The notes under the pieces were generated by a model. The model saw only the letters and a program-made list of their open reading frames with translations, searched no databases and was not told the origin of the DNA. From a virus: a stretch of DNA of 21,680 nucleotides. Below are positions 5,901 through 20,951 of this stretch, in pieces. The stretch is taken from the IMG/VR virus record IMGVR_UViG_3300037963_002995, positions 1 through 21,680 of that record. One strand, 5' to 3'. Both the position numbers and the translations under genes were made by a program. Within the stretch, counting starts at the first letter, position 1; each line of letters starts with the position of its first letter.

Positions 5901-6100
5901 ATTTCCACTTGAATCCATTTACTGACGCTTTAGATTTATATGGCAATACAGGTGGTAGTTTAAATAGTGGGACTTACACAGTTCCAATAAGAAACGCAGA
6001 TGGAATATTTTTAGATAACAATGATAACGAACTATACGTGGTAGTTAGATATGCAGGTGACCCAACACCGCTAGATGACATCACACTAACATTTAGTTAA
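2975..6100 (+). CDS. Large tail fibre / adhesin, 1041 residues
   Basis: The ATG at 2975 overlaps the end of the preceding small gene by 8 bases (ATGGCTAA carries both start and stop). The N-terminus, MAKLSSKQL, resembles that of the 1496-residue fibre (MAKLHSAL). Residues ~60-165 are Ser/Thr-rich with repeated STRLSTEETNVDNLQTDSG units at heptad-like spacing, suggesting a coiled shaft. Linkers of the type STGSFG occur near residues 45 and 247. The rest, from about residue 320, is a non-repetitive beta-rich region with large segments (for example EILRFMSGVMSHSLDVAD and RGLFDPMYAAS) that I take to be the receptor-binding part. The C-terminal ~150 residues (YYIRRF, VNLNNTTLVNWKATTDDRVA, IRNADGIFLDNNDNELYVVV) form a compact domain. 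There is no S74 domain and no recognisable glycosidase motif. Probable role: host recognition. Confidence 0.85.
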   Translation: MAKLSSKQLNTKLTGSYTFSGSSHSFIGDITADNNISASVSSTGSFGAISVAGMSVSNLVDVSSSISTRLSTEETNVDNLQTDSGSFSTRITTAETELSNTLVSSSAQIASDISGSFTDASSSFSTRLSTEETNVDNLQTDSGSFSTRITNLKTDSGSFSTRVTTNTSTGSILAGTGNIQGLGTTNNVQFNHITASGNISSSGTVFADKFQSTGGDSDGILFTDDLNITGSITVTGNVSGSSTSTGSFGYLEGISFGTQAQANITGSFSAASASFATTTTENQARLDTIQQFTGSYATTGSNTFIGDQIVSGSVFLTGSNHISGTIKVNAEGVYSSSTAIFTNNITNGYPTSNPWGSNLEGSYFNNFNNTTHVSEILRFMSGVMSHSLDVADAAPNTKTFASVDTNDNNLGGTDTVDGYLPQSYDSTNATMKYLVTKDWVTAGEQIFQGITQYHDNGGTYFIDFDSNSGGSTSVSSSVDTELFGLGGLTSGGPTDFKVRVHATHSFSDTGSVSAPTAASNTHTTQSKLDLTLGSFGTSDGLTLTKIATNVPAVIPAAFQDGKFVNVGGTSQLSGSLSRKYHASKGLFTSVSSSGYYRWHDLKVGIASGSGNYQFVNGTTKSHFWAPIDQISSDIGTNSLSIAQVTQSYLTAASRSLSGAPYLTGATYHISASVRGLFDPMYAASSTLVDDNIGSVGVGSVGGSGIDDVSTSGGTIQTANAVFASDSGSVRATSAVPTRTDVVRFNATYTLSGTTGDNIQQSSTLTDETFTVGIRARNRASSQSTLQTETIFYHSASLFGQPASSGSMGVYQRTQGYDGGSLTGTTELFSGEDFRIKLNNNVLGFNGDAFTQTYTVDRSEANRVIGEQDLQVKPGFLVNPGGSSRYWYPANYGTGSYKYYIRRFQTSGTKTSMTVNLNNTTLVNWKATTDDRVACALIFKSAASGSGTNSELSRARIYDPSELTANLISSSVAHQTDFHLNPFTDALDLYGNTGGSLNSGTYTVPIRNADGIFLDNNDNELYVVVRYAGDPTPLDDITLTFS
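3173..3402 (+). repeat. 56-bp exact direct repeat within the 1041-residue fibre gene
   Basis: The sequence at 3173-3228 recurs exactly at 3347-3402, an offset of 174 bp (58 codons). It encodes STRLSTEETNVDNLQTDSG twice, with further shorter STRxT...TDSGSF copies around it. The perfect identity, in contrast to the diverged repeats in the other fibres, suggests a recent in-frame duplication. Confidence 0.9.
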
Positions 6101-6108
6101 GGAAAGTA

Positions 6109-9100
6109 ATGGGAAAAATAGACTCAGGTTCAAAATCGAATAGACTCTTAGCGTCAAGACGGTATACACACAATACTCTCAACACGTCTCAAGAGGCGTT
6201 TACCAATGTCCTTGATTTAAGAAGTGAGGAGATATACACAAGAGCGCATCTGATTCCATCTTCAAGTTTACCACATAGTGGTAGCTCACAAAAGAACGCT
6301 ATCTTCACTAAAAATGGACAGAATGTAACTAAATATTGGTATAGACATTGCCTTACGAAATCAAACGTTAATAATGAGGTATTCTTTTTCCTATCACCGA
6401 CAGGAAGTTCTGATGGTATAGGTCCTCAGTTGATAGATGATAATCAACAAACTAATTTTATTTCACCTAAATACTCTGTATCTTCTTTAGCAAATGCTAC
6501 AACCGAAGATGCAACACCTGGTTATTTAGCAATTGTATATAAATCAACCACAACAAATACTGCTTCGTTGGGTGGTGGTGATATTGTTTCAACAAACGAT
6601 TATCAGTTTGATTACAAAACAGGTGTATTACAATTCAAGAGTGATTCAGTAGACCCAAGTGATTCACAAAAACTTTACATGACTGTTTATCAGTATGTGG
6701 GGCAAAATTTAAGAACAGGTTTAGAGGTTCAAGGTCCGTTTACTGCTTCTAATGTAACTTTTACAGGTGAATCAGATATAACAAGTTTTGGTTCAACTGC
6801 TCAGTCTATGATAAGTGGTTCTTGGAGAGGTGAATTAAGTTCAAGTTCAGTAACAGCAGCTGGTGGTGGAATTAGTGGTTCATCAAGTTCAACGGGTTCA
6901 TTTGGTCAAGTTTTTGTAGGAGATAGATTAGTATTCAAAGACCATCAAGATAGTGGTGAATATATAGAGAGTGATGGAACAGATTTAAGTATTAACGTTG
7001 GCGCTAATGGAGACATAAACATACCTGCTAATATAGGAATGACTTTTGGAAATGATGGAGAAAAAATAGAGGGTGACGGCACTAATCTCACATTAGCAGG
7101 TGGTGATATTAATCTTACTGCAGAAGCAGATGTAAACATACCAGCTGATATAGGATTAACATTCGGTGATGATGGAGAGAAGATTGAGGGTGATGGAACA
7201 GACTTAACAATCAATTCAAGTAATGATTTAAATTTAACTGCAACTACGGATATTAATATACCAGCAAACGTAGGCTTAACATTTGGTAATGATGGTGAGA
7301 AGATAGAGGGCGACGGAACTGATATGACTATCGCTTCAAGTGGTGTTCTAACATTATCTTCAGGTGGAAATACGTTAGTTGAAACTGTTACATTTAATAA
7401 CGGAGATGTAACAATACCTGGAGATTTGACTGTAACGGGTAATAGAATTGAAGCTCAAGTCGGTAGTTTACAAGTAGCTGACCATACGATTACAGTTGGT
7501 AGTGGTTCAGCTACATCAGCGCTTATGGAAGCAGGTGGTATAGATTGGGGTGTGAGTGGTAGTATAGCAAATCTTAGATATCAACACGCAACAACAAGTC
7601 TTACATCAAGTGTATTTTTAGCAGCACCTAAACTTACTGTAGACACAATCACGTTAGATGCAGCTGAGATAGATGCAAGTGGCGCACTAACAATAGATGC
7701 AGGCGCAGATATAACCTTAGATGCTACAGGTGATGTCAACGTTCCTGCTAACATCGGAATGACATTTGGTAATGATGGTGAAAAGATTGAAGGTGATGGA
7801 ACTGACCTTACCATAGCTTCAAGTAATGACTTACATTTAACTGCTACGACTGATATAAATATCCCAAGTAATGTAGGATTAACTTTTGGTAATGATGGTG
7901 AAAAAATTGAAGGTGATGGAACTGATTTAACTATAGCCTCAAGTGCTAAATTAAAATTAGATGTAGCTACTGATTTAGAAATAGATGTGGATGGTGGTGA
8001 TATAACGGTAACTGATGATGGAGCGCATATCGTTGACATATCTGCAACTAAGATTAGTGGTTCAGCAACCTCAACTGGTTCATTTGGTTATATAAAGGCT
8101 CAGAGTGGAATAAGTTCAAGTGGTCAAGTTGATATAAATTCTTCTTTTGCTCAGTTAAGATTGACTGACGATGGAATGAATGATTATCTTCGTATAGGTC
8201 AATCTGGTACAGTAGGTTATATAAAAACATCGGATGCTGATAATAATTTCAAATTTAGAAGAGGTAGTGATAATACAGATTTAGTTGAGATATTTTTTGA
8301 AGATGAAAGATTCCATATCTCTGGTTCAGGTGGATTAGATGTTACAGGTAACGTAACTGCAAGTGGGGATGTAAGTGCAAGTGGAGATGTAAGAGCAACT
8401 AATTTTTATGGGCAAGTTGCAACAGCAGCTCAAACAAATATTACATCATTACTAGCTACCGATATTAAGATTGGTGAGGATGACCAAACAAAGATTGATT
8501 TTGGAACAACGAATGAAATACGATTTGCTGCTGACAATCAGGTACAATTAAAAATTGCAGACGGAGTATTAGCACCTCTTTCAGATAGTGATGTTGATTT
8601 AGGAACTTCAGGTCAATACTTCAAAGACGCTTACATTGATTCAATAGTAACTACAGGTAATATAAGTGGTTCATCCGTATCTACAGGTTCATTTGCATAT
8701 GTTGATGTTTCTTCTAAAGTAAGTGGTTCAGCAACCTCAACTGGCTCATTTGGTAAATTAGAAATCGGTAGTGGTGTGGTAACAACCACAGGAAATATGA
8801 CACTTGATGCTGATGGCGCACAAATCAGATTAGAGGATGGTGGCACAGAATTTGGTAGGTTTAGTAGGGTTGCTTCTGATTTTGTCATAAAATCAATGAC
8901 GGGTGATAAAGATTTACTATTCAAAGGTGTGGATGATACAACAACCATAACTGCACTAAAATTGGATATGTCTGAGGGTGGAGATGCAGAATTTAGTGGA
9001 AACGTAAGTGGTTCTTCAGCATCTACAGGTTCATTTGGTAAAGTATTAGGTGATGGTTCAGATTTAACAGGCGTAACTGACGATAGTGCATTAGCTTTCT

Positions 9101-9120
9101 CAATAGTATTTGGAGGCTAA
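6109..9120 (+). CDS. Repeat-containing tail fibre, 1003 residues, paralogue of the 1496-residue fibre
   Basis: Start chosen at the ATG at 6109, 5 bases after AGGAAAG-type Shine-Dalgarno sequence. Residues 1-210 are non-repetitive (MGKIDSGSKSNRLLASRRYT onward), probably the virion-attachment domain. From about residue 280 there are six copies of a ~40-residue repeat ending in EKIEGDGTDLTI. They are interrupted (residues ~420-540) by a unique block containing VTIPGDLTVTGNRIEAQVGS and APKLTVDTITLDAAEID. That block is also present in the 1496-residue fibre at 11910-12290. Five STGSF(G/A) linkers occur. The C-terminus (DKDLLFKGVDD...ITALKLDMSEGG) is homologous to the region just before the S74 domain of the larger fibre. 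Here it is followed instead by a linker and a short end, LGDGSDLTGVTDDSALAFS. The repeat pattern suggests a beta-solenoid or triple beta-helix shaft. Confident as a fibre; its exact position is unknown. Confidence 0.88.
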   Translation: MGKIDSGSKSNRLLASRRYTHNTLNTSQEAFTNVLDLRSEEIYTRAHLIPSSSLPHSGSSQKNAIFTKNGQNVTKYWYRHCLTKSNVNNEVFFFLSPTGSSDGIGPQLIDDNQQTNFISPKYSVSSLANATTEDATPGYLAIVYKSTTTNTASLGGGDIVSTNDYQFDYKTGVLQFKSDSVDPSDSQKLYMTVYQYVGQNLRTGLEVQGPFTASNVTFTGESDITSFGSTAQSMISGSWRGELSSSSVTAAGGGISGSSSSTGSFGQVFVGDRLVFKDHQDSGEYIESDGTDLSINVGANGDINIPANIGMTFGNDGEKIEGDGTNLTLAGGDINLTAEADVNIPADIGLTFGDDGEKIEGDGTDLTINSSNDLNLTATTDINIPANVGLTFGNDGEKIEGDGTDMTIASSGVLTLSSGGNTLVETVTFNNGDVTIPGDLTVTGNRIEAQVGSLQVADHTITVGSGSATSALMEAGGIDWGVSGSIANLRYQHATTSLTSSVFLAAPKLTVDTITLDAAEIDASGALTIDAGADITLDATGDVNVPANIGMTFGNDGEKIEGDGTDLTIASSNDLHLTATTDINIPSNVGLTFGNDGEKIEGDGTDLTIASSAKLKLDVATDLEIDVDGGDITVTDDGAHIVDISATKISGSATSTGSFGYIKAQSGISSSGQVDINSSFAQLRLTDDGMNDYLRIGQSGTVGYIKTSDADNNFKFRRGSDNTDLVEIFFEDERFHISGSGGLDVTGNVTASGDVSASGDVRATNFYGQVATAAQTNITSLLATDIKIGEDDQTKIDFGTTNEIRFAADNQVQLKIADGVLAPLSDSDVDLGTSGQYFKDAYIDSIVTTGNISGSSVSTGSFAYVDVSSKVSGSATSTGSFGKLEIGSGVVTTTGNMTLDADGAQIRLEDGGTEFGRFSRVASDFVIKSMTGDKDLLFKGVDDTTTITALKLDMSEGGDAEFSGNVSGSSASTGSFGKVLGDGSDLTGVTDDSALAFSIVFGG
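6950..7990 (+). repeat. Six ~120-bp repeats in the 1003-residue fibre gene
   Basis: Units of about 40 codons end in (E/D)GEKIEGDGTDLTI or a close variant. Four lie at 6950-7340 and two at 7770-7945, separated by a unique block. The same unit makes up most of the 1496-residue fibre. Protein identity is high while third codon positions differ freely among copies. Confidence 0.88.
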
Positions 9121-9132
9121 TTTGAAAAATTT

Positions 9133-9142
9133 AATATTTATA
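9133..9142 (+). promoter_or_regulatory. Leader motif AATATTTATA before the 108-residue structural gene
   Basis: A copy of the (G)ATATTTAT family in the 54-base spacer after the 1003-residue fibre gene, 32 bases before the ATG at 9175. The complement reads TATAAATATT, which includes the late promoter octamer, but only + strand genes are present on both sides. Confidence 0.35.
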
Positions 9143-9174
9143 GTAGAAGAAAAGTGTAAAAATAGGAACAAATA

Positions 9175-9501
9175 ATGGCAAATACCTTTAAAAACGCAGC
9201 GACTGGATCTAACACAACGATAAATCCATTGTATACTTGTCCAGGTGCAACTTCGGCAGTTGTTCACGCAATCTATGTTAGTAACGTAGATGGAACAAAC
9301 GATGCTAGTATCGATATCACTATAAGTGGTAGTGCTAATTTTACGACAAGAAGACATTTGATGAAAACAGTCTTAGTTCCTGCAGATTCAACACTCATTA
9401 TTGAGAAACCAGTTAATTTGGGAGCGGGGGATATTTTAGAAACTAAAGCAACATCAAATGGTGACCTTGAGGTATTTGCAAGTATATTGGAGATTACATA
9501 A
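9175..9501 (+). CDS. Small virion structural protein, 108 residues
   Basis: The ATG at 9175 follows an AGGAACA ribosome site at 9166 and a 54-base leader that contains AATATTTATA at 9133-9142. The product begins MANTFKNAATGSNTTINPLY and ends DLEVFASILEIT. Alternating hydrophobic residues (AVVHAIYVSNV, SIDITISGSA, LEVFASILEIT) predict a single beta-sandwich. I recall similar ~110-residue proteins beginning MANTFKN and ending in SILEIT in many marine phages, next to fibre genes and annotated only as structural or hypothetical. Its stop overlaps the next start by one base (TAATG), so the two products are probably made together. It may decorate or cap a fibre; this is inference from position. Confidence 0.8.
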   Translation: MANTFKNAATGSNTTINPLYTCPGATSAVVHAIYVSNVDGTNDASIDITISGSANFTTRRHLMKTVLVPADSTLIIEKPVNLGAGDILETKATSNGDLEVFASILEIT

Positions 9502-9743
9502 TGGCTGATCCAGGATATTTAGGATTTAAAGGAATCAATAGTGATACCACAATCAAAGGTGATTTGGTTGTTACTGGCTCAATAAGTTCTACTGGTGCAA
9601 TAAAAGAAAATGGTGTTGCATTAGCAACATTAGATTCAATACAAAACATGGTTATATATGATGAAAGTTTGAATACAATCTTGAATTTTGATTACGTGGG
9701 AACGTCAGATGGAGATATTGTTGTTCATAAGATAGGTGGTTAA
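9501..9743 (+). CDS. Mini fibre-like protein, 80 residues
   Basis: This 80-residue protein is translationally coupled to the preceding gene (the start overlaps the stop by one base). It contains DTTIKGDLVVTGSISSTGAI (residues ~14-33), the same GDLxVTGSISSTG element used as a linker in the large fibres here. It is followed by KENGVALATLDSIQN and a short C-terminus, DGDIVVHKIGG. It looks like a minimal fibre module without a shaft: a short leader, one linker strand and a small C-terminal beta unit. It could be an independent small adhesin, a trimerisation partner or a fibre fragment left by recombination. The intact reading frame and its coupling to its neighbour argue for a functional gene. 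I do not recognise a named family. Confidence 0.75.
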   Translation: MADPGYLGFKGINSDTTIKGDLVVTGSISSTGAIKENGVALATLDSIQNMVIYDESLNTILNFDYVGTSDGDIVVHKIGG

Positions 9744-9755
9744 ACTTAACAATAT

Positions 9756-9764
9756 GATATTTAT
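9756..9764 (+). promoter_or_regulatory. Leader motif GATATTTAT before the 1496-residue fibre gene
   Basis: Located in the 40-base spacer between the 80-residue gene and the giant fibre, 19 bases before its ATG and just upstream of the ribosome site AGGAACG. Same orientation as the other intergenic copies. Confidence 0.4.
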
Positions 9765-9783
9765 TTAATAATAGGAACGAAAA

Positions 9784-12700
9784 ATGGCTAAATTACATTC
9801 AGCATTAGCAACAACAGAATTACATAACCCAAAAGGTATTGGAGTAGAAAGCGCTACTGAAACAATCTTAACGATTAGCGCCTCATTAGGTGCTGTTAGT
9901 GCTAGTGCAAGTATAGTTCCACACACAACCGATACATACAATTTAGGTTCTGATACACAACGATGGAATAACATAACCGCCGCAGGTAATATTTCATCAT
10001 CCACAGTATCTACTGGTTCTTTCGGTAGATTAGAGTTAGCAGGTAATGCAGAGATAGACGGAACAATAACTGTCGCTGGTGGAACAACAACGATTGGTGA
10101 CTCCGATGGTGACACCCTTGTTATTACAGCAGACTTAGCATCAAACCTTATTCCTGATGCAGACAATACAAGAGATATTGGTAGTGTAGCCGCTTCTTGG
10201 AGAAACATTCACTTAGACGGAACAGGTTCTTTCAAAAATACAATTATATCAAACAAAGAATATTTTTCAGATGCTGGTGGTGAACACATAAGTGGTGATG
10301 GAACTGATTTAACTATAGCATCAGGAAGAGACATAAACTTAACTGCTACAACTGATATTAATATACCAGCTGACGTAGGTCTTACCTTTGGTAATGATGC
10401 AGAAAAAATTGAGGGTGATGGAACAGACCTTACCATAGCAGGTAATAATATCAATCTTACAGCCGTTGCAGACGTTAAAGTTCCAGCTAATGTAGGAATT
10501 ATGCTTGGAACACACGAAAAAATAGAAAGTGATGATACTGATTTAACTATAACAGTAGGTTCAGGTGGTGATATCAATGTTGGTGCAGATATAGGAATGA
10601 CATTTGGTAATGATGGAGAAAAGATTGAAGGTGACGGCACAGATTTAACAATAGCTTCAAGTGGTAAATTGAATCTTACAGCAACAAGTGATGTTCACGT
10701 TCCTAAAAATGTCGGTATAGTATTTGATGATAACGCAAGTGAAAAGATAGAAAGTAATGATACTGACTTAACTATAAACTCAGGCGCTGATATAAACCTT
10801 ACAGCGACAAGTGATGTAAATATACCAGCAAACGTTGGTGTTACTTTCGGTGATGATGGTGAAAAGATTGAAGGTGACGGCACAAACATGACTATAAGTG
10901 CCAACAAGATTTTAATAAATAGTGCTGAAACAAGTGGTTCTTCTACTTCGACTGGTTCATTCGCACATGGACATTTTGCAAGTAAGGTTGGTATTAACGA
11001 AGTAGCACCCGCTGAAGCGTTAGAGGTTGTCGGTAATGTGAGTGGTTCTGGTACAGGTTCATTCCATCATGGTTTGGTGAGACAATACTCTTACCTATTC
11101 GATGAGGGTGGTGAATACCTATTAGGTGATGGAACTGATTTAACCATAGCATCAGGAAGAGACATTAATTTAACAGCAACTACAGATATTAATGTTCCTG
11201 CTGATGTCGGTATGACTTTCGGTAATGATGGTGAGAAGATAGAGGGAGATGGAACTGATTTAACTATAGCATCAAGTGCTAAACTAAACCTTACAGCAAC
11301 AAGTGATGTTCATATCCCACAAAACGTTGGATTAGTTTTTGACGCTAATGCTAGTGAAAAAATTGAGTCAAACGATACAGATTTAACTATTAATTCTGGC
11401 GCAGATATAAATTTAACTGCTACGTCTGACGTTAACATACCAGCAAACGTCGGTGTTACTTTCGGTGATGATGGTGAAAAAATTGAAGGAGATGGAACTG
11501 ACTTAACGATTAGTGCTAATAAGATTAAAATTAATTCAGCACTTGTAAGTGGTTCATCTACCTCTACAGGTTCATTTGCAAATGTATTTGTAGCAAATAG
11601 ACTATCCTTTAATGACCATAGTGGAAACGCAACAGGTGAATATTTAGAAAGTGATGGAACTGATTTAAATATTAATGTTGGTGGTAGTGGTGATATCAAT
11701 ATACCAGCAAACATCGGTATGACGTTTGGAAATGACGGAGAAAAAATTGAAGGAGATGGAACAGATTTAACCATTAATTCAAGCGCTGATATAAACTTAA
11801 CTGCAACTTCTGATATTAACATTCCTGCAGAGGTAGGTTTAACATTCGGAGCTGATACAGAAAAGATAGAGGTTGATGGTAGTAATAACCTTTCGATAAT
11901 TTCAAATGGAAACACATTGGTTGAAACTGTTACATTTAATAATGGTAATGTAACAATTCCAGGAGACTTGACTGTTACAGGTAATAGACTTGAAGCACAA
12001 GTTGGAAGTCTACAAGTCGCTGACCACACCATAACGGTTGGTAGTGGTTCAGCTACATCCGCACTAATGCACAATGGTGGTATTGATTGGGGTATAAGTG
12101 GTAGTGTGGCATTTTTAAGATATAGACACGCTGGAACTGCACTTTCTTCAAGTGTCTTTATGGAAGCACCTAAACTTACTGTAGATACGATTACATTAGA
12201 CGCAGCTGAAATTGATGCAAGTGGTGCATTAACAATTGATACAGGTGCAGACTTAACATTAGATGCTACAGGTGATGTTAACATACCAGCTGATATCGGA
12301 TTAACCTTTGGAAATGACGGAGAAAAAATTGAAGGAGACGGAACAGATTTAACTATAGCTTCAAGTGCTAAACTAAACTTGACTGCTACTTCAGACGTTC
12401 ATATCCCACAAAACGTTGGATTAGTTTTTGACGCCAATGCTAGTGAAAAGATAGAAAGTAATGATACTGACTTAACTATAAACTCAGGCGCAGACATAAA
12501 TTTAACTGCAACTGCAGATGTTAATATACCAGCAAACGTTGGTATAACTTTCGGTGATGACGGAGAAAAGATAGAGGGAGATGGAACAGATTTAACAATC
12601 TCTGCAAATATTCTAAAGATAGCTAGTGGTATGACAAGTGGTTCATCAGTATCTTCAGGTTCATTTGCTCATGGACATTTTCATGAAGTAGGTATCAACA

Positions 12701-14274
12701 CAAAAAATCCTGCAGAAGCATTACACGTGATAGGAAACGTTAGTGGTTCAGGAACAGGTTCATTCCACCACACCTTGACAAGACAATATTCATACTTATT
12801 CGATGAGGGTGGTGAGTATCTAACAGGTGATGGAACTGATTTGACTATAGCATCTGGTAGAGATATTAATCTTACAGCTACAACTGATATAAACATACCA
12901 GCTGACGTAGGACTTACTTTTGGAAATGACGCTGAAAAGATAGAGGGTGATGGAACAGACTTAACCATTACTGGTAATAAGATTAACTTATCACCAACCG
13001 CTGACGTTCACATACCTAAGAACAAAGGTATTGTGTTTGATGATAACGCAAGTGAGAAAATTGAGTCAAACGATACAGATTTAACTATAAACTCTGGCGC
13101 AGACATAAATTTAACTGCTACGGCTGACGTTAACATACCAGCAAATGTTGGTATAACTTTTGGTGATGATGGAGAGAAAATTGAGGGTGATGGTACAGAC
13201 TTAACTATATCAGCTAATATTCTAAAATTAAATTCATCCTTGACAAGTGGTTCTAATAGTTCTACAGGTTCATTTGGTAATGTTTTTGTAGCAAATAGAT
13301 TATCATTTAATGACCATAGTGGAAACTCAACAGGTGAATTCTTAGAGAGTGACGGAACTGATTTAAATATCAACGTTGGTGGTAGTGGTGATATCAACAT
13401 ACCAGCAGACATTGGTTTGACTTTTGGTAATGATGGTGAGAAAATAGAGGGTGATGGAACTGATTTAACCATAGCAGGTGCAAAAATAAATCTTACTGCA
13501 GAATCAGATGTCCACATACCTCAGAATATTGGATTAGTATTTGACGCTAATGGTAGTGAAAAGATTGAATCAGACGACACAGACTTAACGATTGGTTCTG
13601 GAGCTAAGATTAACTTGAACGCAACATCCGATGTTCATATTCCAAATGATGTTGGTATCGTGTTCGGTGGAGCTAGTGAGAAGATTGAGGGTGATGGAAC
13701 TGATTTAACAATTAGCGCTAATAATCTAACAGTAGATGCAGCTGCAGATATTATATTAGACGCGGGTGGTAATGATACTGTAATAAAATCAGGTGGAACT
13801 ACAATCGCTTCATTCAAGAACGCTTCAAGTGATTTCGTAATTGTTACGGATGTTGATGATAAGGATATACTACTCAAAGGACAAGATGGAACTTCTGAAA
13901 TAACGGCTCTACAATTAGATATGAGTGCAGCAGGTCTTGCAAACTTTAACAATGACGTTGTGGCATTCTATTCTTCAGACGAAAGATTGAAAGATAATGT
14001 GGTTAAGATTGGAGACCCATTAATGAAACTTTCAGAACTTCGTGGTGTAGAGTTCGATTGGAACAAAAACAAAGAAGCATTTGAGGGTGAACATTCTTAT
14101 GGTGTTATAGCACAAGAAGTAGAAAAAATTCTTCCTGAAATCGTAACCGAAAGAAGTGATGGATACAAGGCTGTTAAGTATGAATTGATAGTTCCATTAC
14201 TAATTGAAGCTGTCAAAGAGTTGAATGAGAAAGTAGAACGCATCGAAAAAAATTGTGATTGTTTGAATAAATAA
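9784..14274 (+). CDS. Giant repeat tail fibre with C-terminal S74 intramolecular chaperone, 1496 residues
   Basis: The ATG at 9784 has AGGAACG 8-12 bases upstream and the leader motif GATATTTAT at 9756-9764. Residues ~160-1330 carry about 24 copies of a ~40-residue repeat (unit end EKIEGDGTDLTI or EKIESNDTDLTI, preceded by DINIPANVGLTFG). They are broken by STGSF linkers and by a unique block at 11910-12290 shared with the 1003-residue fibre. Residues ~1397-1496 are a peptidase S74 / endosialidase-type chaperone: SSDERLKDN at 1397-1405, then VEFDWNK, YGVIAQEVEKILPEIV, YKAVKYELIVPLLIEAVKEL and a coiled-coil end. By analogy with characterised S74 proteins this domain trimerises the shaft and then cuts itself off at the Ser of the SDxRLK motif, leaving a mature fibre of roughly 1397 residues. 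Likely a major receptor-binding fibre; the shaft is probably beta-solenoid (inference). Confidence 0.92.
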   Translation: MAKLHSALATTELHNPKGIGVESATETILTISASLGAVSASASIVPHTTDTYNLGSDTQRWNNITAAGNISSSTVSTGSFGRLELAGNAEIDGTITVAGGTTTIGDSDGDTLVITADLASNLIPDADNTRDIGSVAASWRNIHLDGTGSFKNTIISNKEYFSDAGGEHISGDGTDLTIASGRDINLTATTDINIPADVGLTFGNDAEKIEGDGTDLTIAGNNINLTAVADVKVPANVGIMLGTHEKIESDDTDLTITVGSGGDINVGADIGMTFGNDGEKIEGDGTDLTIASSGKLNLTATSDVHVPKNVGIVFDDNASEKIESNDTDLTINSGADINLTATSDVNIPANVGVTFGDDGEKIEGDGTNMTISANKILINSAETSGSSTSTGSFAHGHFASKVGINEVAPAEALEVVGNVSGSGTGSFHHGLVRQYSYLFDEGGEYLLGDGTDLTIASGRDINLTATTDINVPADVGMTFGNDGEKIEGDGTDLTIASSAKLNLTATSDVHIPQNVGLVFDANASEKIESNDTDLTINSGADINLTATSDVNIPANVGVTFGDDGEKIEGDGTDLTISANKIKINSALVSGSSTSTGSFANVFVANRLSFNDHSGNATGEYLESDGTDLNINVGGSGDINIPANIGMTFGNDGEKIEGDGTDLTINSSADINLTATSDINIPAEVGLTFGADTEKIEVDGSNNLSIISNGNTLVETVTFNNGNVTIPGDLTVTGNRLEAQVGSLQVADHTITVGSGSATSALMHNGGIDWGISGSVAFLRYRHAGTALSSSVFMEAPKLTVDTITLDAAEIDASGALTIDTGADLTLDATGDVNIPADIGLTFGNDGEKIEGDGTDLTIASSAKLNLTATSDVHIPQNVGLVFDANASEKIESNDTDLTINSGADINLTATADVNIPANVGITFGDDGEKIEGDGTDLTISANILKIASGMTSGSSVSSGSFAHGHFHEVGINTKNPAEALHVIGNVSGSGTGSFHHTLTRQYSYLFDEGGEYLTGDGTDLTIASGRDINLTATTDINIPADVGLTFGNDAEKIEGDGTDLTITGNKINLSPTADVHIPKNKGIVFDDNASEKIESNDTDLTINSGADINLTATADVNIPANVGITFGDDGEKIEGDGTDLTISANILKLNSSLTSGSNSSTGSFGNVFVANRLSFNDHSGNSTGEFLESDGTDLNINVGGSGDINIPADIGLTFGNDGEKIEGDGTDLTIAGAKINLTAESDVHIPQNIGLVFDANGSEKIESDDTDLTIGSGAKINLNATSDVHIPNDVGIVFGGASEKIEGDGTDLTISANNLTVDAAADIILDAGGNDTVIKSGGTTIASFKNASSDFVIVTDVDDKDILLKGQDGTSEITALQLDMSAAGLANFNNDVVAFYSSDERLKDNVVKIGDPLMKLSELRGVEFDWNKNKEAFEGEHSYGVIAQEVEKILPEIVTERSDGYKAVKYELIVPLLIEAVKELNEKVERIEKNCDCLNK
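10270..13725 (+). repeat. About 24 ~120-bp repeats in the 1496-residue fibre gene
   Basis: Units of 40-41 codons carry DINLTATTDINIPANVGLTF then EKIEGDGTDLTI, often alternating with a second type (DVHIPxNVGxVFD then EKIESNDTDLTI). Some runs of identity exist, for example 38 bases shared by 11308-11345 and 12397-12434, but most copies differ at wobble positions. A larger segment is duplicated about 1.7 kb apart (10955-11770 and 12661-13465). Confidence 0.88.
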
Positions 14275-14707: not shown

Positions 14708-17113
14708 ATGGCTGAAAGAATAGTAAGTCCTGGTGTATTTACATCCGAGAAAGACCTATCATTTCTTCCACAAGGTGTAGCAGACATTGGAGCTGCGATT
14801 ATCGGTCCTACGACTAAAGGTCCAGCTTTTACACCTACTGTTCTGAATAACTATTCAGAATTCGAAGAGATGTTCGGTGGTCTCGATAGACGTTTTTATA
14901 CACCATATACTGTGCAACAGTATTTGCGTTCCGCGGGGACAGTAACGGTCGTGAGGGTTTTGGGACTAGGTGGATACAAACCTGATATAATCACATTATC
15001 TTGTAGAATTAGTGGTTCAACTAAAGATCACGCATTAGCTGTTTTAGCACCATCACGTGGTGGTGGAAACGGAACTGCTGATTTGACACCATCTACAGGT
15101 AGTGGAACTTTTACAAATTACACATTAGTAGTTAGTGGAAGTGATATCACAACCTATACAAAAACTATTTCGTTTAGTACAGGAAGTGCAAATTATATCG
15201 GAGATGTACTTAGCACAGATCCTCAGATAGCAGATGATGGAGCGGGAACAACGGTTCCAGTCTATCTTTACAAAAACTTTAAGGGAATTCAACATTCCAC
15301 AGGTTCAGGCGCTTGGCAAAGTGCAGTCACATCATCAACAGGTACACTTGACTTAAATTCAGGTGTTTCTACATATGATGCTGATGGTAACGCCGACACA
15401 TGGACTGGTAACAAAGATTTTAGTGTGGCAAGAACACCATATCTACAATCACAATTAGTGGCTGGAGCAAGATATAACTTGTTTAGAGTTTATACACGTT
15501 CACATGGAACGAATATGAACAAAGCTTACAAAGTTAATATCTTAAATGTCAAGGCAGCATCCTCAGTAGCAGGTAGTGACTATGGAACATTCTCATTACA
15601 AGTTAGACATCATGCACCAAATAAAACAAAAGACAATCAAATCGTTGAACAATTTGATAATTTGACATTCGATCCAGAAGCAGCAAATTACTTTGCTAAA
15701 GTAATTGGTGATAGACACGTGGAAATCGATTCAAATGGTAAGTTGACATACAAAGGTGATTATCCAAACTTGAGTAAACATATCAGAGTTGGTGATTACA
15801 AAAACTTAGAAAATATGCCAACTACAGTTGTTCCTATGGGTCACGATGCATTGAACATTCCTGTATCTAGTGCACCAAGTGCATCTTTTGTTCATACACA
15901 GCAGAATACAAATGGTGATTTCGATTCTAATATATTCTATGGATTCGATTTCGATATGGATAAACGTCCTGATAATGGTGAATACTTATCACCTATACCC
16001 AAGACAGCTGCTACAACTGGTAACGTCTCTATGTCTCTTGAGAACATGAAAGGTCACGCTGATGCAAGTTCATTAGCAACCACATTCTCAGATGCTACAG
16101 AGAATATTACACTATCACTATCAGCTATTGGTCAGAGAAAGTTCACAGTACCTTTCCAGTTTGGATTTGATGGTGATAATCCTGGTAATCCAAAACTTGT
16201 TGGTAACGATATAAGTGCAACAAACACACAAGGATTTGATATCTCAAGTGCTACAGCAAGTGGTTCAGTAGCATACAAAAGAGCAATCAATGCTGTAAGT
16301 AATCCAGATGAATTCGACATTAATATGTTGGTGACACCTGGTGTTATTCACAGACTACATCCAAAAGTGACAAATCATGCAATATTGAAAGTAGAAGCAA
16401 GAGCAGACGCTTTCTATATCATGGATGCAGCAGCATATGGTGATACTATCGCTACAGTGACAAATACTGTAAGTGCTTTGGATACAAACTATGCAGGAAC
16501 ATATTACCCCTGGGTTAAGATAGTCGATGGAGATACAAACAGACCAGTTTGGGTACCACCATCAGTAGTATTACCTGGCGTAATCGCATTTACTGATAAA
16601 GTAGCACACGAATGGTTTGCACCAGCTGGTTTAAATCGTGGTGGTTTGACTACGGTGTTGGAAGCTAAAACAAGATTGACTCACGCTGAAAGAGATGACC
16701 TCTATGAAGAAAGAGTGAATCCAATAGCTTCATTCCCTGGTCAAGGTGTAGTAGTATTCGGACAGAAAACACTACAATCCAAACCATCAGCATTAGATAG
16801 AATCAATGTTCGTAGATTGTTAATTGCATTAAAGAAATTTATTGCAAGTTCTTCAAGATTCTTAGTATTCGAACAGAACACAGTAGCAACACGAAACAGA
16901 TTCTTGAATATTGTTAATCCTTATCTTGAAAGTGTACAATCCAATAGTGGTTTAAGTGCATTCAGAGTAGTAATGGATGAAACTAACAATACTCCTGATG
17001 TTGTAGATAGAAACAGATTGGTAGGACAGATATTTATTCAACCTACGAGAACTGCTGAGTTCATCGTGTTGGATTTTGTTGTTCAACCTACAGGCGCATC
17101 GTTCCCTGAGTAA
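14708..17113 (+). CDS. Contractile tail sheath protein (T4 gp18-like), 801 residues
   Basis: The ATG follows AGGAG at 14696-14700. The N-terminus has the sheath signature: RIVSPGVFTSEKDLSF, then GAAIIGPTTKGPAFTPTVL and FGGLDRRFYTPYTVQQYLR (residues ~4-70), then TVTVVRVLG. The C-terminal ~180 residues carry the conserved sheath core: RLTHAERDDLYEERVNPIAS, VVVFGQKTLQ, LDRINVRRLLIALKKFI, FEQNTVATRNRFLNIVNPYL and RNRLVGQIFIQPTRTAEFI. It forms the contractile cylinder around the tail tube that drives DNA injection. At 801 residues it is longer than T4 gp18 (659); the extra length lies in the variable middle (~100-500), which usually forms outward-facing domains. It is transcribed as its own unit: a late promoter lies before it and a terminator after it, which fits the large amounts required. 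Confidence 0.95.
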   Translation: MAERIVSPGVFTSEKDLSFLPQGVADIGAAIIGPTTKGPAFTPTVLNNYSEFEEMFGGLDRRFYTPYTVQQYLRSAGTVTVVRVLGLGGYKPDIITLSCRISGSTKDHALAVLAPSRGGGNGTADLTPSTGSGTFTNYTLVVSGSDITTYTKTISFSTGSANYIGDVLSTDPQIADDGAGTTVPVYLYKNFKGIQHSTGSGAWQSAVTSSTGTLDLNSGVSTYDADGNADTWTGNKDFSVARTPYLQSQLVAGARYNLFRVYTRSHGTNMNKAYKVNILNVKAASSVAGSDYGTFSLQVRHHAPNKTKDNQIVEQFDNLTFDPEAANYFAKVIGDRHVEIDSNGKLTYKGDYPNLSKHIRVGDYKNLENMPTTVVPMGHDALNIPVSSAPSASFVHTQQNTNGDFDSNIFYGFDFDMDKRPDNGEYLSPIPKTAATTGNVSMSLENMKGHADASSLATTFSDATENITLSLSAIGQRKFTVPFQFGFDGDNPGNPKLVGNDISATNTQGFDISSATASGSVAYKRAINAVSNPDEFDINMLVTPGVIHRLHPKVTNHAILKVEARADAFYIMDAAAYGDTIATVTNTVSALDTNYAGTYYPWVKIVDGDTNRPVWVPPSVVLPGVIAFTDKVAHEWFAPAGLNRGGLTTVLEAKTRLTHAERDDLYEERVNPIASFPGQGVVVFGQKTLQSKPSALDRINVRRLLIALKKFIASSSRFLVFEQNTVATRNRFLNIVNPYLESVQSNSGLSAFRVVMDETNNTPDVVDRNRLVGQIFIQPTRTAEFIVLDFVVQPTGASFPE

Positions 17114-17144
17114 TTTATCTTATAACATACGCTGACGTATATGG

Positions 17145-17177
17145 AAAACCCCGACTTCGGTTGGGGTTTTTCTTTTT
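17145..17177 (+). terminator. Rho-independent terminator after the sheath gene
   Basis: The arms AAAACCCCGAC (17145-17155) and GTTGGGGTTTT (17160-17170) pair with one G-U wobble around a stable TTCG tetraloop, followed by a T-rich tract to 17177. It lies 31 bases after the sheath stop. A smaller hairpin, ATACG-CTGA-CGTAT at 17127-17140, lies just before it. Confidence 0.92.
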
Positions 17178-17290: not shown

Positions 17291-17779
17291 ATGCCTGACA
17301 TTTTAGATACCAACGAAATATTTTTTACCCCGTTTGAACCGAAAACAAAAAATCGGTTTATTATGTATATCGAGGGTATACCATCTTACTTAATTAAAGC
17401 TGGAGGAAGACCACAGATTCAGTTTGAGGAGATGATTTTAGACCATATAAATGTTAAGAGACATTTAAAAGGTAAAGGAACTTGGCAACCTATTGATATC
17501 ACGTTATACGATCCTATCGTTCCAAGTGGTGCACAAGCAGTTATGGAATGGGTTCGTTTAGGTCATGAGTCGGTTACAGGTAGAGACGGATATGCAGATT
17601 TTTACAAAAAAGATATTACATTTAATATGTTAGGTCCAGTCGGTGATATAGTAGAAGAGTGGACTTTAAAAGGTGCTTATATATCAACTGCAAACTTTGG
17701 TGAGATAGCTTTTGAGTCTAGCGAACCAGCAGATATAACCTTAACATTACAATACGATTACGCAATCTTACAATTCTAA
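17291..17779 (+). CDS. Tail tube protein (T4 gp19-like), 162 residues
   Basis: The ATG follows CGGAGA at 17279. Length (162; T4 gp19 is 163) and features fit the gp19 tube family: an N-terminal PFEPKTKNRFIMYIEGIPSY (residues 13-32), IQFEEMILDHINVKRHLKGK (near 45-64), TWQPIDITLYDPI, a long central helix region, DITFNMLGPVGDIVEEWTLK and a final strand, ADITLTLQYDYAILQF. Hexameric rings of this protein stack to form the inner tail tube through which DNA passes, polymerising along the tape measure and surrounded by the sheath. It directly follows the sheath gene, as in T4 and most myoviruses, but with a terminator between them, so it needs its own promoter or read-through. Confidence 0.93.
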   Translation: MPDILDTNEIFFTPFEPKTKNRFIMYIEGIPSYLIKAGGRPQIQFEEMILDHINVKRHLKGKGTWQPIDITLYDPIVPSGAQAVMEWVRLGHESVTGRDGYADFYKKDITFNMLGPVGDIVEEWTLKGAYISTANFGEIAFESSEPADITLTLQYDYAILQF

Positions 17780-17796: not shown

Positions 17797-17949
17797 ATGA
17801 GTGAATGGATAGCAGCAAATTGGGAATACGTTTTGGTAGTTCTTTACGCAGTAGAGAAAATTGTAAAACTTACCCCAACTAAATACGATGACATTGTTTT
17901 CGATATGGTTTTGAAACCAATTAAGGACAAATTTTCACCATCAAAATAA
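17797..17949 (+). CDS. Short predicted membrane-associated protein, 50 residues
   Basis: This short gene begins at the ATG at 17797, preceded by a good ribosome site (AGGAG at 17786-17790) 6 bases upstream, and ends at TAA 17947-17949. The product begins MSEWIAANWEYVLVVLYAVE and ends KPIKDKFSPSK. Residues 8-24 are mostly hydrophobic with two aromatic residues, enough for one short membrane segment or amphipathic helix, followed by a polar KLTPTKYDDIV stretch. I recall comparable 50-80-residue proteins with a TPTxxDD motif in marine phages, but know no proven role. Candidates are a small holin-like or tail-associated protein. It lies between the tube and gp26-like genes. The strong ribosome site and tight packing support a real gene. 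Confidence 0.7.
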   Translation: MSEWIAANWEYVLVVLYAVEKIVKLTPTKYDDIVFDMVLKPIKDKFSPSK

Positions 17950-17978
17950 ATTGTAATTTCAAGAATTACTAATATAGT

Positions 17979-17986
17979 TATAATAA
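17979..17986 (+). promoter_or_regulatory. Possible promoter element TATAATAA before the gp26-like gene
   Basis: TATAATAA resembles both a sigma70 -10 box and the late promoter octamer (TATAAATA with two bases swapped). It is in a 79-base spacer, 42 bases before the next start codon. No clear -35 box is seen. This spacer has no (G)ATATTTAT motif. Confidence 0.3.
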
Positions 17987-18028
17987 ACAGGTTTTAAATC
18001 TTAATGATATTAATCAGAGGATAACTCT

Positions 18029-18403
18029 ATGGCAGAAACTAAATTTCCGACGGAAGAAGTAAATCTTCCGTCGAAGGGATATTTTTATCCCAAAGAACAT
18101 CCACTTTCATCAGGTAAAGTGGAGATGAAATACATGACCGCGCGTGAAGAAGACATTCTTACTTCACCTAATCTATTGAAGCAAGGACTTGCTATCGATA
18201 AACTTTTAGAAGCATTAATTGTGGATAAAAAGGTTAAGATAAATGATTTACTTATAGGTGACAAGAATGCACTTATTATTGCAGCTAGAATACTTGCTTA
18301 TGGTAAAGAATATAATTTTACAGTCTATGATGAAGATGGAGAACAGACTACTGCAAAAGTAGATTTGACTACGTTGAATGATAAAGAAATTGATACCAAA
18401 TGA
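18029..18403 (+). CDS. gp26-like baseplate hub / tail assembly protein, N-terminal part (first frame)
   Basis: The start ATG is preceded by AGAGG at 18015-18019. The product matches the T4 baseplate protein family (Pfam T4_baseplate, T4 gp26 type) as I remember it: VNLPSKGYFYPKEHPLSSGK (residues 11-30), then VEMKYMTAREEDILTSPNLL (31-50), KQGLAIDKLLEALIV and NALIIAARILAYGKEY (~80-95). In T4, gp26 acts in baseplate hub assembly. Family members are normally single proteins of about 210-250 residues. Here the frame closes at residue 124 (LNDKEIDTK then TGA at 18401), and the missing C-terminal half continues in another frame from 18378. This is either an indel (natural or from sequencing) or a frameshifting gene. 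The gene lies two genes after the tube and four before the tape measure, the usual place of tail assembly chaperones. Confidence 0.8.
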   Translation: MAETKFPTEEVNLPSKGYFYPKEHPLSSGKVEMKYMTAREEDILTSPNLLKQGLAIDKLLEALIVDKKVKINDLLIGDKNALIIAARILAYGKEYNFTVYDEDGEQTTAKVDLTTLNDKEIDTK

Positions 18404-18761
18404 ATTTCAGTTTAAATTACCAAATAGTAAGAGAGATGCCAACCTCAGACTTCTTACTCATCAAGACGAAAAAGAGCTTGAGATTGAAGCTGAACGATTG
18501 AAAAAGGTGGGTGGAATAACTCAAGTTATGACAAGTCGTATGAAACGAGTGATTGTTTCAGTTGATGGTAAATCAGAAAGAGCTCATATCAATAATTTTG
18601 TTGATAAAGAATTACTATCAGTAGATGCATTAGCGATAAGAAAATTTATCAATTCAGTCAATCCTGATGTGCATATGACTACTACAGCAACCTTTGAAGA
18701 TGGAACGGAACAGGAGGTTGCAGTGGAAATCACTGCTCAGTTTTTTTGGCCTTCAGCCTAA
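18378..18761 (+). CDS. gp26-like protein, C-terminal part (second frame)
   Basis: This continues the gp26-like family sequence in the +1 frame relative to the N-terminal part: NEFQFKLPNSKRDANLRLLT (from about residue 8), then HQDEKELEIEAERLKKVGG, MTSRMKRVIVSVDGKSERAH, LSVDALAIRKFINSVNPDVH and a family-typical end, VEITAQFFWPSA. The ATG at 18378 has no Shine-Dalgarno, and TGA precedes it directly (18375-18377), so independent initiation looks poor. The two halves most likely form one protein of about 240 residues. The possible joining window is only 26 bases (18378-18403). The 3' end overlaps the gp51-like frame by 68 bases. The homology of both halves is clear by eye; how they are joined is unresolved. 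Confidence 0.75.
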   Translation: MIKKLIPNEFQFKLPNSKRDANLRLLTHQDEKELEIEAERLKKVGGITQVMTSRMKRVIVSVDGKSERAHINNFVDKELLSVDALAIRKFINSVNPDVHMTTTATFEDGTEQEVAVEITAQFFWPSA

Positions 18762-18960
18762 ACACAAAAAAGATATTCACGAAGAAATATTTCAACTAAT
18801 ATACTATCACAAGGGTGGTTTTACCTTTGATGAAGTATACAACCTACCAATATACTTGCGCAAATTTTACTTAAAACGTCTTGAAAAACAGTATCAAGAT
18901 GAAAATAAGGAAATAGATAAAGCTCAAAAGAAGATGCGACAAAAGTATAAATCACCTTAA
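18694..18960 (+). CDS. gp51-like baseplate hub assembly protein, possibly expressed by frameshift from the gp26-like gene
   Basis: The frame is open from a TTG at 18694 (ATG at 18700), but neither has a ribosome site, and the first ~15 residues (MKMERNRRLQWKSLL) look like translation of another gene's frame. Recognisable sequence starts at FFGLQPKHKKDIHEEIF, encoded by the T-run at 18741, and continues YYHKGGFTFDEVYNLPIYLR, KFYLKRLEKQYQDENKEID. This fits the short gp51-type hub assembly proteins of T4-like phages as I remember them (small helical proteins with GGF...DVYNMPxxLRKFY). T4 gp51 helps assemble the hub and does not stay in the virion. The 68-base overlap with the gp26-like frame and the seven-T run suggest a gp26-gp51 fusion product made by +1 or -2 slipping. 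The coordinates give the open frame, not a proven start. Confidence 0.7.
   Translation: MKMERNRRLQWKSLLSFFGLQPKHKKDIHEEIFQLIYYHKGGFTFDEVYNLPIYLRKFYLKRLEKQYQDENKEIDKAQKKMRQKYKSP
18741..18747 (+). promoter_or_regulatory. Candidate programmed frameshift site (run of seven T)
   Basis: In the gp26-like frame the codons are CAG TTT TTT TGG CCT TCA GCC TAA. A Phe-tRNA on the second TTT can move +1 or -2 and still pair with TTT, then continue GGC CTT CAG into the gp51-like frame. The site is four codons before the gp26-like stop. An AGGAGG sequence lies 23 bases upstream (18712-18717). No strong downstream hairpin was recognised. Confidence 0.5.
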
Positions 18961-18979
18961 TAGAAAAACTTAACTATTC

Positions 18980-18988
18980 GATATTTAT
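18980..18988 (+). promoter_or_regulatory. Leader motif GATATTTAT before the 82-residue gene
   Basis: Lies in the 66-base spacer after the gp51-like frame, 38 bases before the ATG at 19027. The spacing is the same as that in front of the tube gene. Confidence 0.4.
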
Positions 18989-19026
18989 TATTGAATCAAA
19001 ACAACCTAATCATATTGGAGATACTA

Positions 19027-19275
19027 ATGGCCGGCAGAATCGGTAGATACACATACAAAAACGAATCTGTATTGAAAGAATTTTTCAAAGTTCTTTTCGG
19101 AAAACTTGGAGCATCTAAGAGACGAAAAATAGAAAAGGATATGAGAAAAGATCCTGAGATGAGAAAGCTCCTTGATAAGTTAGAGAAACGAAACAAAGAG
19201 GCTATTAAGCGAATGAAAGCTAAAAGAGACTCTAATCCAAACTACGATTCTTATCTAAAAAGTATAGGTGAATAG
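19027..19275 (+). CDS. Small basic protein of unknown function, 82 residues
   Basis: The start was set at the ATG at 19027 because TTGGAG lies at 19015-19020; an in-frame TTG at 18991 would add 12 hydrophobic residues but falls in the leader next to GATATTTATTATTG. The product, beginning MAGRIGRYTYKNESVLKEFF, is helical and very basic: KRRKIEKDMRKDPEMRKLL and KRNKEAIKRMKAKRD make up most of residues 30-65, ending YDSYLKSIGE. No cysteine pairs, membrane segment or enzyme motif. It lies between gp51-like and the tape measure, so a role as a tape-measure chaperone or hub-assembly factor is a reasonable guess. I do not recognise a named family. Confidence 0.75.
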   Translation: MAGRIGRYTYKNESVLKEFFKVLFGKLGASKRRKIEKDMRKDPEMRKLLDKLEKRNKEAIKRMKAKRDSNPNYDSYLKSIGE

Positions 19276-19295
19276 TATCCAATAAAGGATAAACA

Positions 19296-20951
19296 ATGCC
19301 AAAACCCAAAAATCCAGCTAGTGATTTATTTGCAGATGAATTAGAAAGACTTGGAGGCGTACCAGGCCTTGCAGATGTCTTTGAACAGCTAGAACGACGT
19401 ACTAAAAAAGTATCTGAGAATACTGGTGACTTTGTAGATAAATTACAAGATGCATTTGATGAAGCAGAAAATGTAGCTGATAGTCAAAAAGATTTATTTT
19501 CGACAACTGTTAATCTAAAATCTCTACAGAGAAAAGCTAACCAAGAAAAAAATAGAGATATGAAGAAAATATATCAGAGCTTGGTGCAAGAGGGTAGAGT
19601 TCAAGCAAACCTTAGAAAAGAAGCTGATGTAGCTCTAAAAAGTTATAGGAAAAAGGAAGCAACTGTAAAAAAACTTACTGACATGATACCTGGAGTGGGT
19701 GGTATGTTAGGAAACATCATTGATGGTGTTGGTGAAGCATATAAAGATGGATTGGGTAAAGGATTAGATAAAGGTGAAGCTCAACTGATGGGTATCGGTA
19801 AAGGTTTCAAGGTTGTTGGTGGTCTTATGGTAGCAGCGATATTTAAAAACTTTTACGATAATATGACAGAACTTGGTGTAGGTCTTAGAGATACATTTAC
19901 AAGACCAGAATTCTTCTTATTTGGAAAAGAAATGAGAGCCCTGTCTCAAGAGTTCGGTAATATCAATGAGGGTTCTATGAGACTCGGTTTAAGCATGAAA
20001 ATGACTTCTATATTTTCAGGAGTAACTGCAGAAAACCAAGTAAAGATTTTAGCAGCGATGGCAGCAACTTCTGATGCAAGTCTTGAAGTTCTCAACTCTC
20101 AAATGAAAGCATACAAGCAGGCTGGTGTTCCATTTAAATTGATAATGGATGATGTAGCTGGTAATACAGAACTTTTTGCAAAATTTGCAAAAGATGGTGG
20201 AGGAAATATATTTGATGCAGCAAAAAGAGCAAGAGAGTTAGGTGTTAATTTAAGTGATGTAGCGAGTATATCAGAATCATTACTTAACTTCGAATCATCC
20301 ATAGAAGCACAAATGAATGCACAAGTTTTACTAGGTAAAAGTATTAATCTTGATAGAGCAAGACAGTTAGCATTTGCAGGAGAGCAATCAGCTATGATGG
20401 ATGAGATTGTTTCTCAAGTTGGTGGTGAAGCAGAATTTAATAAGTTAAATGTTATACAAAGAAAAGCATTAGCAGATAGTGTTGGTTTAAGTGTAGATAG
20501 AATGGCTGCTTTAGTCAGAGAGGAAGAAAAAAGTAATAAATCGACATTAGCAAAAGCAGCGTTATTCATAGGTTTAGGTGCTCTTGTAGGTGCCATTGGT
20601 GGAATGATATTCACAAGTTTATCACTACCTACATTTGGTGCAAGTTTAGCTGGATTTGCAGCATTAGGTCCAGGAGCTTTAGCTGGAGGAGCGATTGGAG
20701 CAGCAGCAGGAGGAGCAGCCTATTCTATGGGATCTAGTAAAGGTCCATCATTTCAAGGATTAGGTGCAAATAAAATAGCTCATTTAAGAAGTGGTGAAGG
20801 TACATTTCACGCTGGTGAATCTGTAGCACAAACTGAAACTTTTAATATGAGTGGAGTAGAGGAAAGACTTGATGCGTTAATTGGAAAGTTTGATAAGATG
20901 GCTGGGTCTATAGCAGACTTAGAAACAGGTGGAGGAGGTGCTGCAGCATAA
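19296..20951 (+). CDS. Tail tape measure-like protein, 551 residues
   Basis: The ATG follows AAGGA at 19286. Residues ~10-125 are highly charged helix with coiled-coil character (FEQLERRTKKVSENTGDFVD, LKSLQRKANQEKNRDMKKIY). Hydrophobic stretches follow at ~130-146 (MIPGVGGMLGNIIDGVG) and ~168-187. Residues ~419-477 are a long Gly/Ala hydrophobic segment (ALFIGLGALVGAIGGMIF, GALAGGAIGAAAGGAAYS), typical of tape measures, which enter the host membrane during injection. The C-terminus (LRSGEGTFHAGESV then VEERLDALIGKFDKMAGSI) returns to helix. Position after the tube and hub-assembly genes supports the call, as does a length near T4 gp29 (590). At the usual ~1.5 angstrom per residue it would set a tail tube of roughly 80 nm (inference). 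Its stop overlaps the next start by one base. Confidence 0.8.
   Translation: MPKPKNPASDLFADELERLGGVPGLADVFEQLERRTKKVSENTGDFVDKLQDAFDEAENVADSQKDLFSTTVNLKSLQRKANQEKNRDMKKIYQSLVQEGRVQANLRKEADVALKSYRKKEATVKKLTDMIPGVGGMLGNIIDGVGEAYKDGLGKGLDKGEAQLMGIGKGFKVVGGLMVAAIFKNFYDNMTELGVGLRDTFTRPEFFLFGKEMRALSQEFGNINEGSMRLGLSMKMTSIFSGVTAENQVKILAAMAATSDASLEVLNSQMKAYKQAGVPFKLIMDDVAGNTELFAKFAKDGGGNIFDAAKRARELGVNLSDVASISESLLNFESSIEAQMNAQVLLGKSINLDRARQLAFAGEQSAMMDEIVSQVGGEAEFNKLNVIQRKALADSVGLSVDRMAALVREEEKSNKSTLAKAALFIGLGALVGAIGGMIFTSLSLPTFGASLAGFAALGPGALAGGAIGAAAGGAAYSMGSSKGPSFQGLGANKIAHLRSGEGTFHAGESVAQTETFNMSGVEERLDALIGKFDKMAGSIADLETGGGGAAA

Follow-up and report, generated by a model that had tools for sequence, protein, structure and literature searches.

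Gene Content of the Tail Module

The stretch of DNA analyzed here, referred to as the window, comprises 21,680 of the 26,721 bases of an IMG/VR virus record. Its tail genes lie in the order sheath, tube, the gp26-like and gp51-like frames, a small ORF, and a long ORF at the position expected of a tape-measure gene:

14708..17113, + strand: tail sheath gene, given for context (phrog_23, E 1.5e-72; Pfam sheath domains)
17291..17779, + strand: tail tube gene, given for context (phrog_4542, E 3.3e-27)
18029..18403, + strand: N-terminal half of the putative gp26-like short chaperone (TAC-N), ended early by a 20-nt deletion (PF12322, E 2.5e-6, profile positions 9-105; phrog_150, E 1.6e-8; a single intact ORF in relatives)
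18378..18761, + strand: C-terminal half of the same putative chaperone, zero frame, ending ...AQFFWPSA-stop (ORF; phrog_150, E 8.7e-4, profile positions 176-233)
18398..18399, no strand: site of the 20-nt deletion, specific to the window and ambiguous by a few A, which breaks gp26 (alignment with 8 relatives)
19296..20951, + strand: candidate tape-measure gene, 551 aa (assigned by position)

The PF12322 (T4_baseplate) match of the N-terminal half is above the curated cutoff of that family. The candidate tape-measure gene gave no significant family match in a Pfam/PHROG-type profile search, and the second gene downstream of gp26 in phage immuto carries the annotation tail tape measure. The gp26/gp51 pair is thus found between the tail tube and the (candidate) tape-measure genes, the position that tail assembly chaperones occupy. 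Several other features of the module are recorded here as observations in their own right. At 17143-17172, between sheath and tube, there is a strong hairpin resembling an intrinsic terminator (13 bp, then a T-rich tail), and a 12-bp inverted repeat (CGACGGAAGA...TCTTCCGTCG) lies just inside the gp26 start at 18046-18075, where it is partly kept in near relatives, possibly via coding. The region from 2975 to 14274 is taken up by very large, internally repetitive fibre-like ORFs, the last of which ends like an intramolecular-chaperone (peptidase S74-like) domain.

Each of the 11 first-round relatives encodes gp26 in a single ORF of about 250 codons. The 20-nt deletion near 18398/18399, which may be genuine or an assembly error, is private to this record, splitting the gene into the overlapping frames 18029-18403 and 18378-18761, and all eight relatives aligned across it are intact. 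An earlier, sequence-only reading of this DNA had described the frame ending FFWPSA as gp26-like; this frame, 18378-18761, is real but is only the C-terminal half of gp26, given that PF12322 matches the preceding ORF and that the gene is unbroken in relatives. Because the deletion breaks gp26, the record as assembled may make neither chaperone product. The junction described below is untouched by the deletion; the same contig also contains, further downstream, a run of undetermined bases.

The predicted structure of the short-form gp26 of this clade (pLDDT 89.5, pTM 0.85) matches, with a Foldseek probability of 1.00, the predicted structures of T4-like hub or hub-assembly proteins from SP-15 (TM 0.82), Campylobacter CP220, Vibrio VH7D, and Acidovorax ACP17, annotated in the last case as ‘hub assembly chaperone’. 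The model has no significant match to any solved structure, and the fold is therefore not tied to that of solved chaperones.

Two Reading Frames Share a Seven-T Run

The run of seven T at exactly 18741-18747 is common to the gp26-like and gp51-like frames, as the sequence-only reading had noticed from the two peptides FFWPSA and FFGLQPKHKK. Around it the gp26 frame reads CAG TTT TTT TGG CCT TCA GCC TAA (QFFWPSA-stop), and the +1 frame reads AGT TTT TTT GGC CTT CAG CCT AAA (SFFGLQPK). The features of the junction are:

18720..18736, + strand: hairpin GCAGTG-GAAAT-CACTGC, proposed +1 stimulator, its 3' arm ending 4 nt before the T-run (clade-wide stem counts and covariation; listed by a terminator scan)
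18741..18749, + strand: putative slip site TTT TTT TGG (tRNA-Phe moving +1 from UUU to UUU, with UUU or UGG in the A site)
18742..18960, + strand: gp51-like extension (TAC-C) in the +1 frame, FFGLQPKHKK...KYKSP-stop (+1-frame profile match in 313 loci; alignment)
18759..18761, + strand: zero-frame stop TAA, end of the short product (sequence)

In the window the only potential starts upstream in the gp51 frame are TTG at 18694 and ATG at 18700, neither with a Shine-Dalgarno sequence at usable spacing, in agreement with the earlier statement that no start in this frame has a ribosome site. The expectation that the T-run would be conserved holds, far more than chance would allow, for the 11 first-round relatives, all of which keep ITAQ-TTTTTTT-GGCC together with the +1 frame, but seven T are not strictly required, since TTTCTTTGG is found in 49 of the 248 distinct loci considered next.

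Conservation of the +1 Frame and Probable Direction of the Proposed Slip

Viral contig scans together with searches of annotated phages yielded 315 gp26 homologues of the window's type with the stop codon in hand, and in 313 of these a profile of the extension places gp51 in the +1 frame at the same site. The two exceptions are LR756511, where it is in the -1 frame, and one contig too short to score. Among isolates, the +1 arrangement occurs in Flavobacterium phage immuto, Microcystis phage Mel-JY01, Rhodothermus phage RM378, Bacillus phage SP-15, and Streptococcus phage GXN1, with a weak match of the extension in SP-15 (E 0.003) and GXN1 (E 0.03). In the first four of these phages (loci L013, L015, L017, and L018) gp51 has been missed or is annotated as a fragment or separate ORF, and in none as a frameshift product.

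When loci are counted as distinct 120-base junctions, 248 remain. Their slip 7-mers are TTTTTTT (194), TTTCTTT (49), CTTTTTT (3), TTCTTTT (1), and TTTCTAT (1), and the codon that follows the slip region is TGG in 244. The residues encoded by the +1 frame are variable before the slip site and nearly invariant (FFGL) after it, and we therefore place entry into this frame at the run. The comparison of homologous loci that had been suggested for the overlap and the slippery run finds both conserved, and at the level of sequence it establishes the two-frame arrangement and its conservation. An open frame, the lack of starts, and conserved slip codons likewise support the original suggestion of a gp26-gp51 fusion by slippage on the T-run, and we hold with high confidence that frameshifting would be the means by which it is made.

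That suggestion had left the direction of the slip open, with Phe-tRNA moving either +1 or -2. A -2 frameshift of the tail chaperone has been proposed for Mu-type phages, and the same movement at this T-run would add one Phe to the product (AQFFFGLQ). The seven T do allow perfect -2 re-pairing, and under a strict test, in which codon positions 1 and 2 must re-pair exactly, -2 is allowed at 197 of the 248 sites. The same test fails for -2 at the other 51, whereas +1 re-pairing is possible at every one of the 248. Under relaxed pairing -2 is excluded at two sites only, by inspection L309 (GAG TTC TTT TGG) and LR756508 (AAC TTT CTA TTC), and Streptococcus phage GXN1 (GAA TTC TTT CGT), which lies outside the 248-site count, excludes it as well. 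Backward movement would also be opposed by a hairpin behind the ribosome (PMC6321510). We consequently regard a -2 slip as unlikely and have good confidence, from the pairing rules, that the slip would be +1. A single rule covers all sites: the P-site codon is UUU or CUU, and the next base is a pyrimidine. The commonest contexts are UUU UGG C and CUU UGG C.

Initiation of gp51 and the T4-Type Relatives

If gp51 were a protein of its own, initiated internally or by reinitiation after termination close to the gp26 stop, no frameshift would be needed, and annotators do list separate short ORFs. However, 113 of the 248 distinct loci have no ATG, GTG, or TTG in the gp51 frame, either in the open upstream stretch or in the next 20 codons downstream; CTG, ATT, ATC, and ATA are also missing upstream in 86 of these 113. 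In 114 of the 248 a stop lies so close upstream that just 1-3 codons are open ahead of the slip. A gp51 start after the T-run, which would have spoken against the fusion, is thus absent from these 113 loci; separate initiation is therefore excluded there, and with it for much of the clade.

Relatives of the cyanophage type bear on the same question. Their extension occupies the -1 frame, with T TTT TTC or T TTT TTT at the shift, in P-SSM2, S-PM2, KVP40, phiM12, Cr30, and HTVC008M, and the -1 frame is likewise used in all 78 scorable cyanophage-type metagenome loci. In the -1 clade (L133-L206) an ATG two bases after the gp26 stop is kept (TAAGTATG), giving listed junctions of the form TAA/TGA-GT-ATG, and free gp51 could therefore be made there by reinitiation besides frameshifting. 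The ATG is absent in HTVC008M, however, and T4 gp51 is a single polypeptide that contains gp26 plus the extension. We consider a separately initiated gp51 quite unlikely as the explanation of the window's locus. Sullivan et al. (2010; PMC3037559) had earlier pointed out that the first ~200 residues are missing from gp51 of cyanophages and vibriophages.

In T4 itself gp26 (208 aa) and gp51 (249 aa) are encoded on opposite strands and both match PF12322 over the whole length of the profile; the C-terminal part of T4 gp51 also matches phrog_634. In the alignment, the start of the gp51 extension coincides with the C-terminal end of gp26 from T4 and from the cyanophages. Judged from these matches, the short and long forms in T4 are separate paralogous genes, 26 and 51. 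Profile comparison (hhalign) of the +1 clade with T4-type gp26/gp51 is modest (39-55% probability, E 1e-4 to 3e-4), and that of the extensions reaches E 1.2e-4 at 55% probability only. With a -1 shift in the cyanophage type, a +1 shift in the window's type, and separate genes in T4, one homologous locus appears to exist in three forms. In Campylobacter phage NCTC12673 (L037, 2082-2756) a gp51-like paralogue with the extension adjoins a gp26-like gene and is apparently interrupted by a stop; the locus has a two-gene arrangement of the T4 type, in which an error or recoding may be involved.

The Upstream Hairpin

The hairpin at 18720-18736 belongs to a block of 87 loci in the gp26 protein tree, referred to as the hairpin clade, which was delimited after the hairpin had been seen and whose smallest enclosing group has 88 members with a support of 0.62. 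A stem of at least 6 bp is found in 52 of the 56 distinct upstream sequences of this clade. The mean best stem is 6.30 compared with 3.77 in synonymous shuffles, figures to be read with the post hoc choice of the clade and the inflation of counts by relatedness in mind. In the register of the hairpin, three of the base pairs join two codon third positions, and all three covary when the encoded amino acids are kept constant (P 0.002, 0/2000, and 0/2000), relatedness again inflating the counts. Among 15 sequences chosen for at least 6 pairs, and hence biased, 92.4% of cells are paired compared with 78.9% in shuffles, and four hairpin pairs show two-sided changes within this same biased set. In single sequences alone the hairpin is mostly not significant, and part of the pairing is dictated by the encoded protein.

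Work with E. coli 70S ribosomes has shown that an upstream hairpin adjacent to the E site raises +1 and lowers -1 frameshifting, the hairpin-stimulated +1 shift requiring an unfilled A site (PMC6321510). By this precedent and the covariation, we have moderate confidence that the hairpin would stimulate the +1 slip in the window's clade. In the remaining +1 clades such stems are not enriched (mean best stem 3.75, shuffled 3.51); the hairpin is therefore not required in general, and we rejected it as a stimulator common to all +1 clades. We also rejected Shine-Dalgarno stimulation by the AGGAGG at 18712-18717, which is more than 20 nt from the run and follows from coding. A search of Rfam returned no family at 17900-19400.

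A stem followed by U7, and one that a terminator scan lists, could instead act in transcription, as an intrinsic terminator or attenuator in the operon or as a site of RNA polymerase slippage. We consider such a role very unlikely. Four nucleotides separate the stem from the T-run, and in 39 of the 87 hairpin-clade loci the run is TTTCTTT, a poor U tract and no homopolymer, while both the hairpin and the +1 frame persist. Termination would, moreover, leave the conserved open +1 frame unexplained. Transcriptional slippage was rejected as the general mechanism because of these TTTCTTT sites without a homopolymer. Finally, one could suppose that a decayed gene, or an indel introduced into a single ORF by sequencing or assembly, gives a false impression of two frames. 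This idea might draw on the private deletion in gp26 and the undetermined bases noted above, but it is practically negligible given that the same frame change recurs in 313 loci from many metagenomes and in the isolates immuto, Mel-JY01, RM378, SP-15, and GXN1.

Proposed Mechanism

Based on these data, we consider it very probable that a single tail assembly chaperone is produced in two lengths from the gp26/gp51 locus, the long form arising by a +1 slip. We propose that ribosomes staying in frame would produce the short form (gp26-like, TAC-N) and stop at 18759-18761, while a minority would slip +1 at (U/C)UU U within UUU YUU UGG, with the first or second UUU as the P-site codon, and continue into the gp51-like extension to give the gp26-gp51 fusion (TAC-NC). 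The hairpin at 18720-18736, directly behind the decoding sites, would probably assist this forward movement in the window's clade. We hypothesize that it refolds at the edge of the E site and in so doing blocks backward movement and favours +1, as does the internal Shine-Dalgarno in prfB. By analogy with gpG/gpGT of lambda, coating of the tape-measure protein would fall to the short form and recruitment of tube subunits to the long form. The occurrence and efficiency of the shift and the role of the hairpin are inferred, and it is homology and gene order that point to a chaperone function in these phages. The likeness to the frameshifting of tail assembly chaperones drawn in the sequence-only reading is upheld by the position between tube and tape measure and by the composition of T4 gp51.

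Known and Apparently New Aspects of the Locus

As to whether such a system had been described, which the sequence-only reading could not say, the general T4-like chaperone pair has been, in 2022, while no account of a +1 class that has an upstream hairpin came to light in the open-licence literature. An abstract by Vladimirov and colleagues reportedly names genes 26 and 51 and states that frameshifting is conserved in several T4-like groups. The central idea of that reading is right but, with the pair published in 2022, not new. The identification of the T4-like tail chaperone genes (Vladimirov, Gautam and Davidson, 2022, Virology 566:9-15) is cited in PMC10885494 and PMC12846349, and the PRFect and phage Adele papers describe some T4-like phages with a short gene and a fused long gene as well as poly-T -1 signals in T4-like TAC-N genes. 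In the open-licence literature we found no report of a +1 shift in the gp26/gp51 family, nor of a naturally occurring hairpin upstream of a site of this kind; there, the upstream hairpin as a +1 stimulator is described only from designed constructs (PMC6321510). The +1 direction in a large marine phage group and the covarying hairpin before the slip site thus look new.

We lean toward the view that this is a natural, conserved +1 frameshift driven by an intramolecular hairpin at the edge of the E site, at a homologous locus that has switched among -1, +1, and gene duplication (T4) in phage evolution. Hundreds of phages from marine and freshwater sources, in which gp51 is now overlooked or called as a stray ORF, would gain a corrected annotation, and the arrangement supports a link between two long-puzzling ‘hub assembly’ proteins of T4 and the widely distributed pair of tail chaperones. 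At identical FF codons, relatives shift by -1, by +1, or not at all, and they would also provide a natural test case of the way in which a hairpin located behind the ribosome decides the direction of a slip.

Comparison with Known Recoding Systems

As is proposed for the window, lambda (gpG/gpGT), P2 (E/E+E'), and Mu have an overlapping pair between the tube and tape-measure genes from which a short and a long chaperone are made, but they use a -1 or -2 shift, and the likeness drawn here is one of arrangement. The G-T type of frameshift has been described as conserved in long-tailed phages ‘except T4’ (Atkins et al., 2016; PMC5009743). The T4-like chaperones gp26 (TAC-N) and gp51 (TAC-NC) belong to the same family (PF12322/phrog_150) and follow the same logic of a short and a long form, although in T4, unlike the window, both come from separate genes. 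The cyanophage/KVP40 type has homologous genes and shifts at an FF-coding T-run at the same place in gp26, but by -1 at T TTT TTY, with a stop close after and, in many, an ATG after the stop. What sets the window's type apart from the T4-like chaperones of the citing papers is the +1 direction, the large marine and freshwater clade, and, in one part of it, the covarying upstream hairpin.

A hallmark of the prfB-type +1 frameshift is an internal Shine-Dalgarno some 3 nt upstream of the codon in the P site. In the window no Shine-Dalgarno occupies that place, and the hairpin lies there. Like E. coli prfB (RF2), with its CUU UGA C, the window's clade has a YUU U slip, possibly a slow UG-starting codon in the A site, then C, and in the hairpin clade also a duplex next to the E site. 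Unlike prfB, the A-site codon is UGG (Trp) and not a stop, the duplex is an intramolecular hairpin and not a Shine-Dalgarno pairing, and the shift is not autoregulatory.
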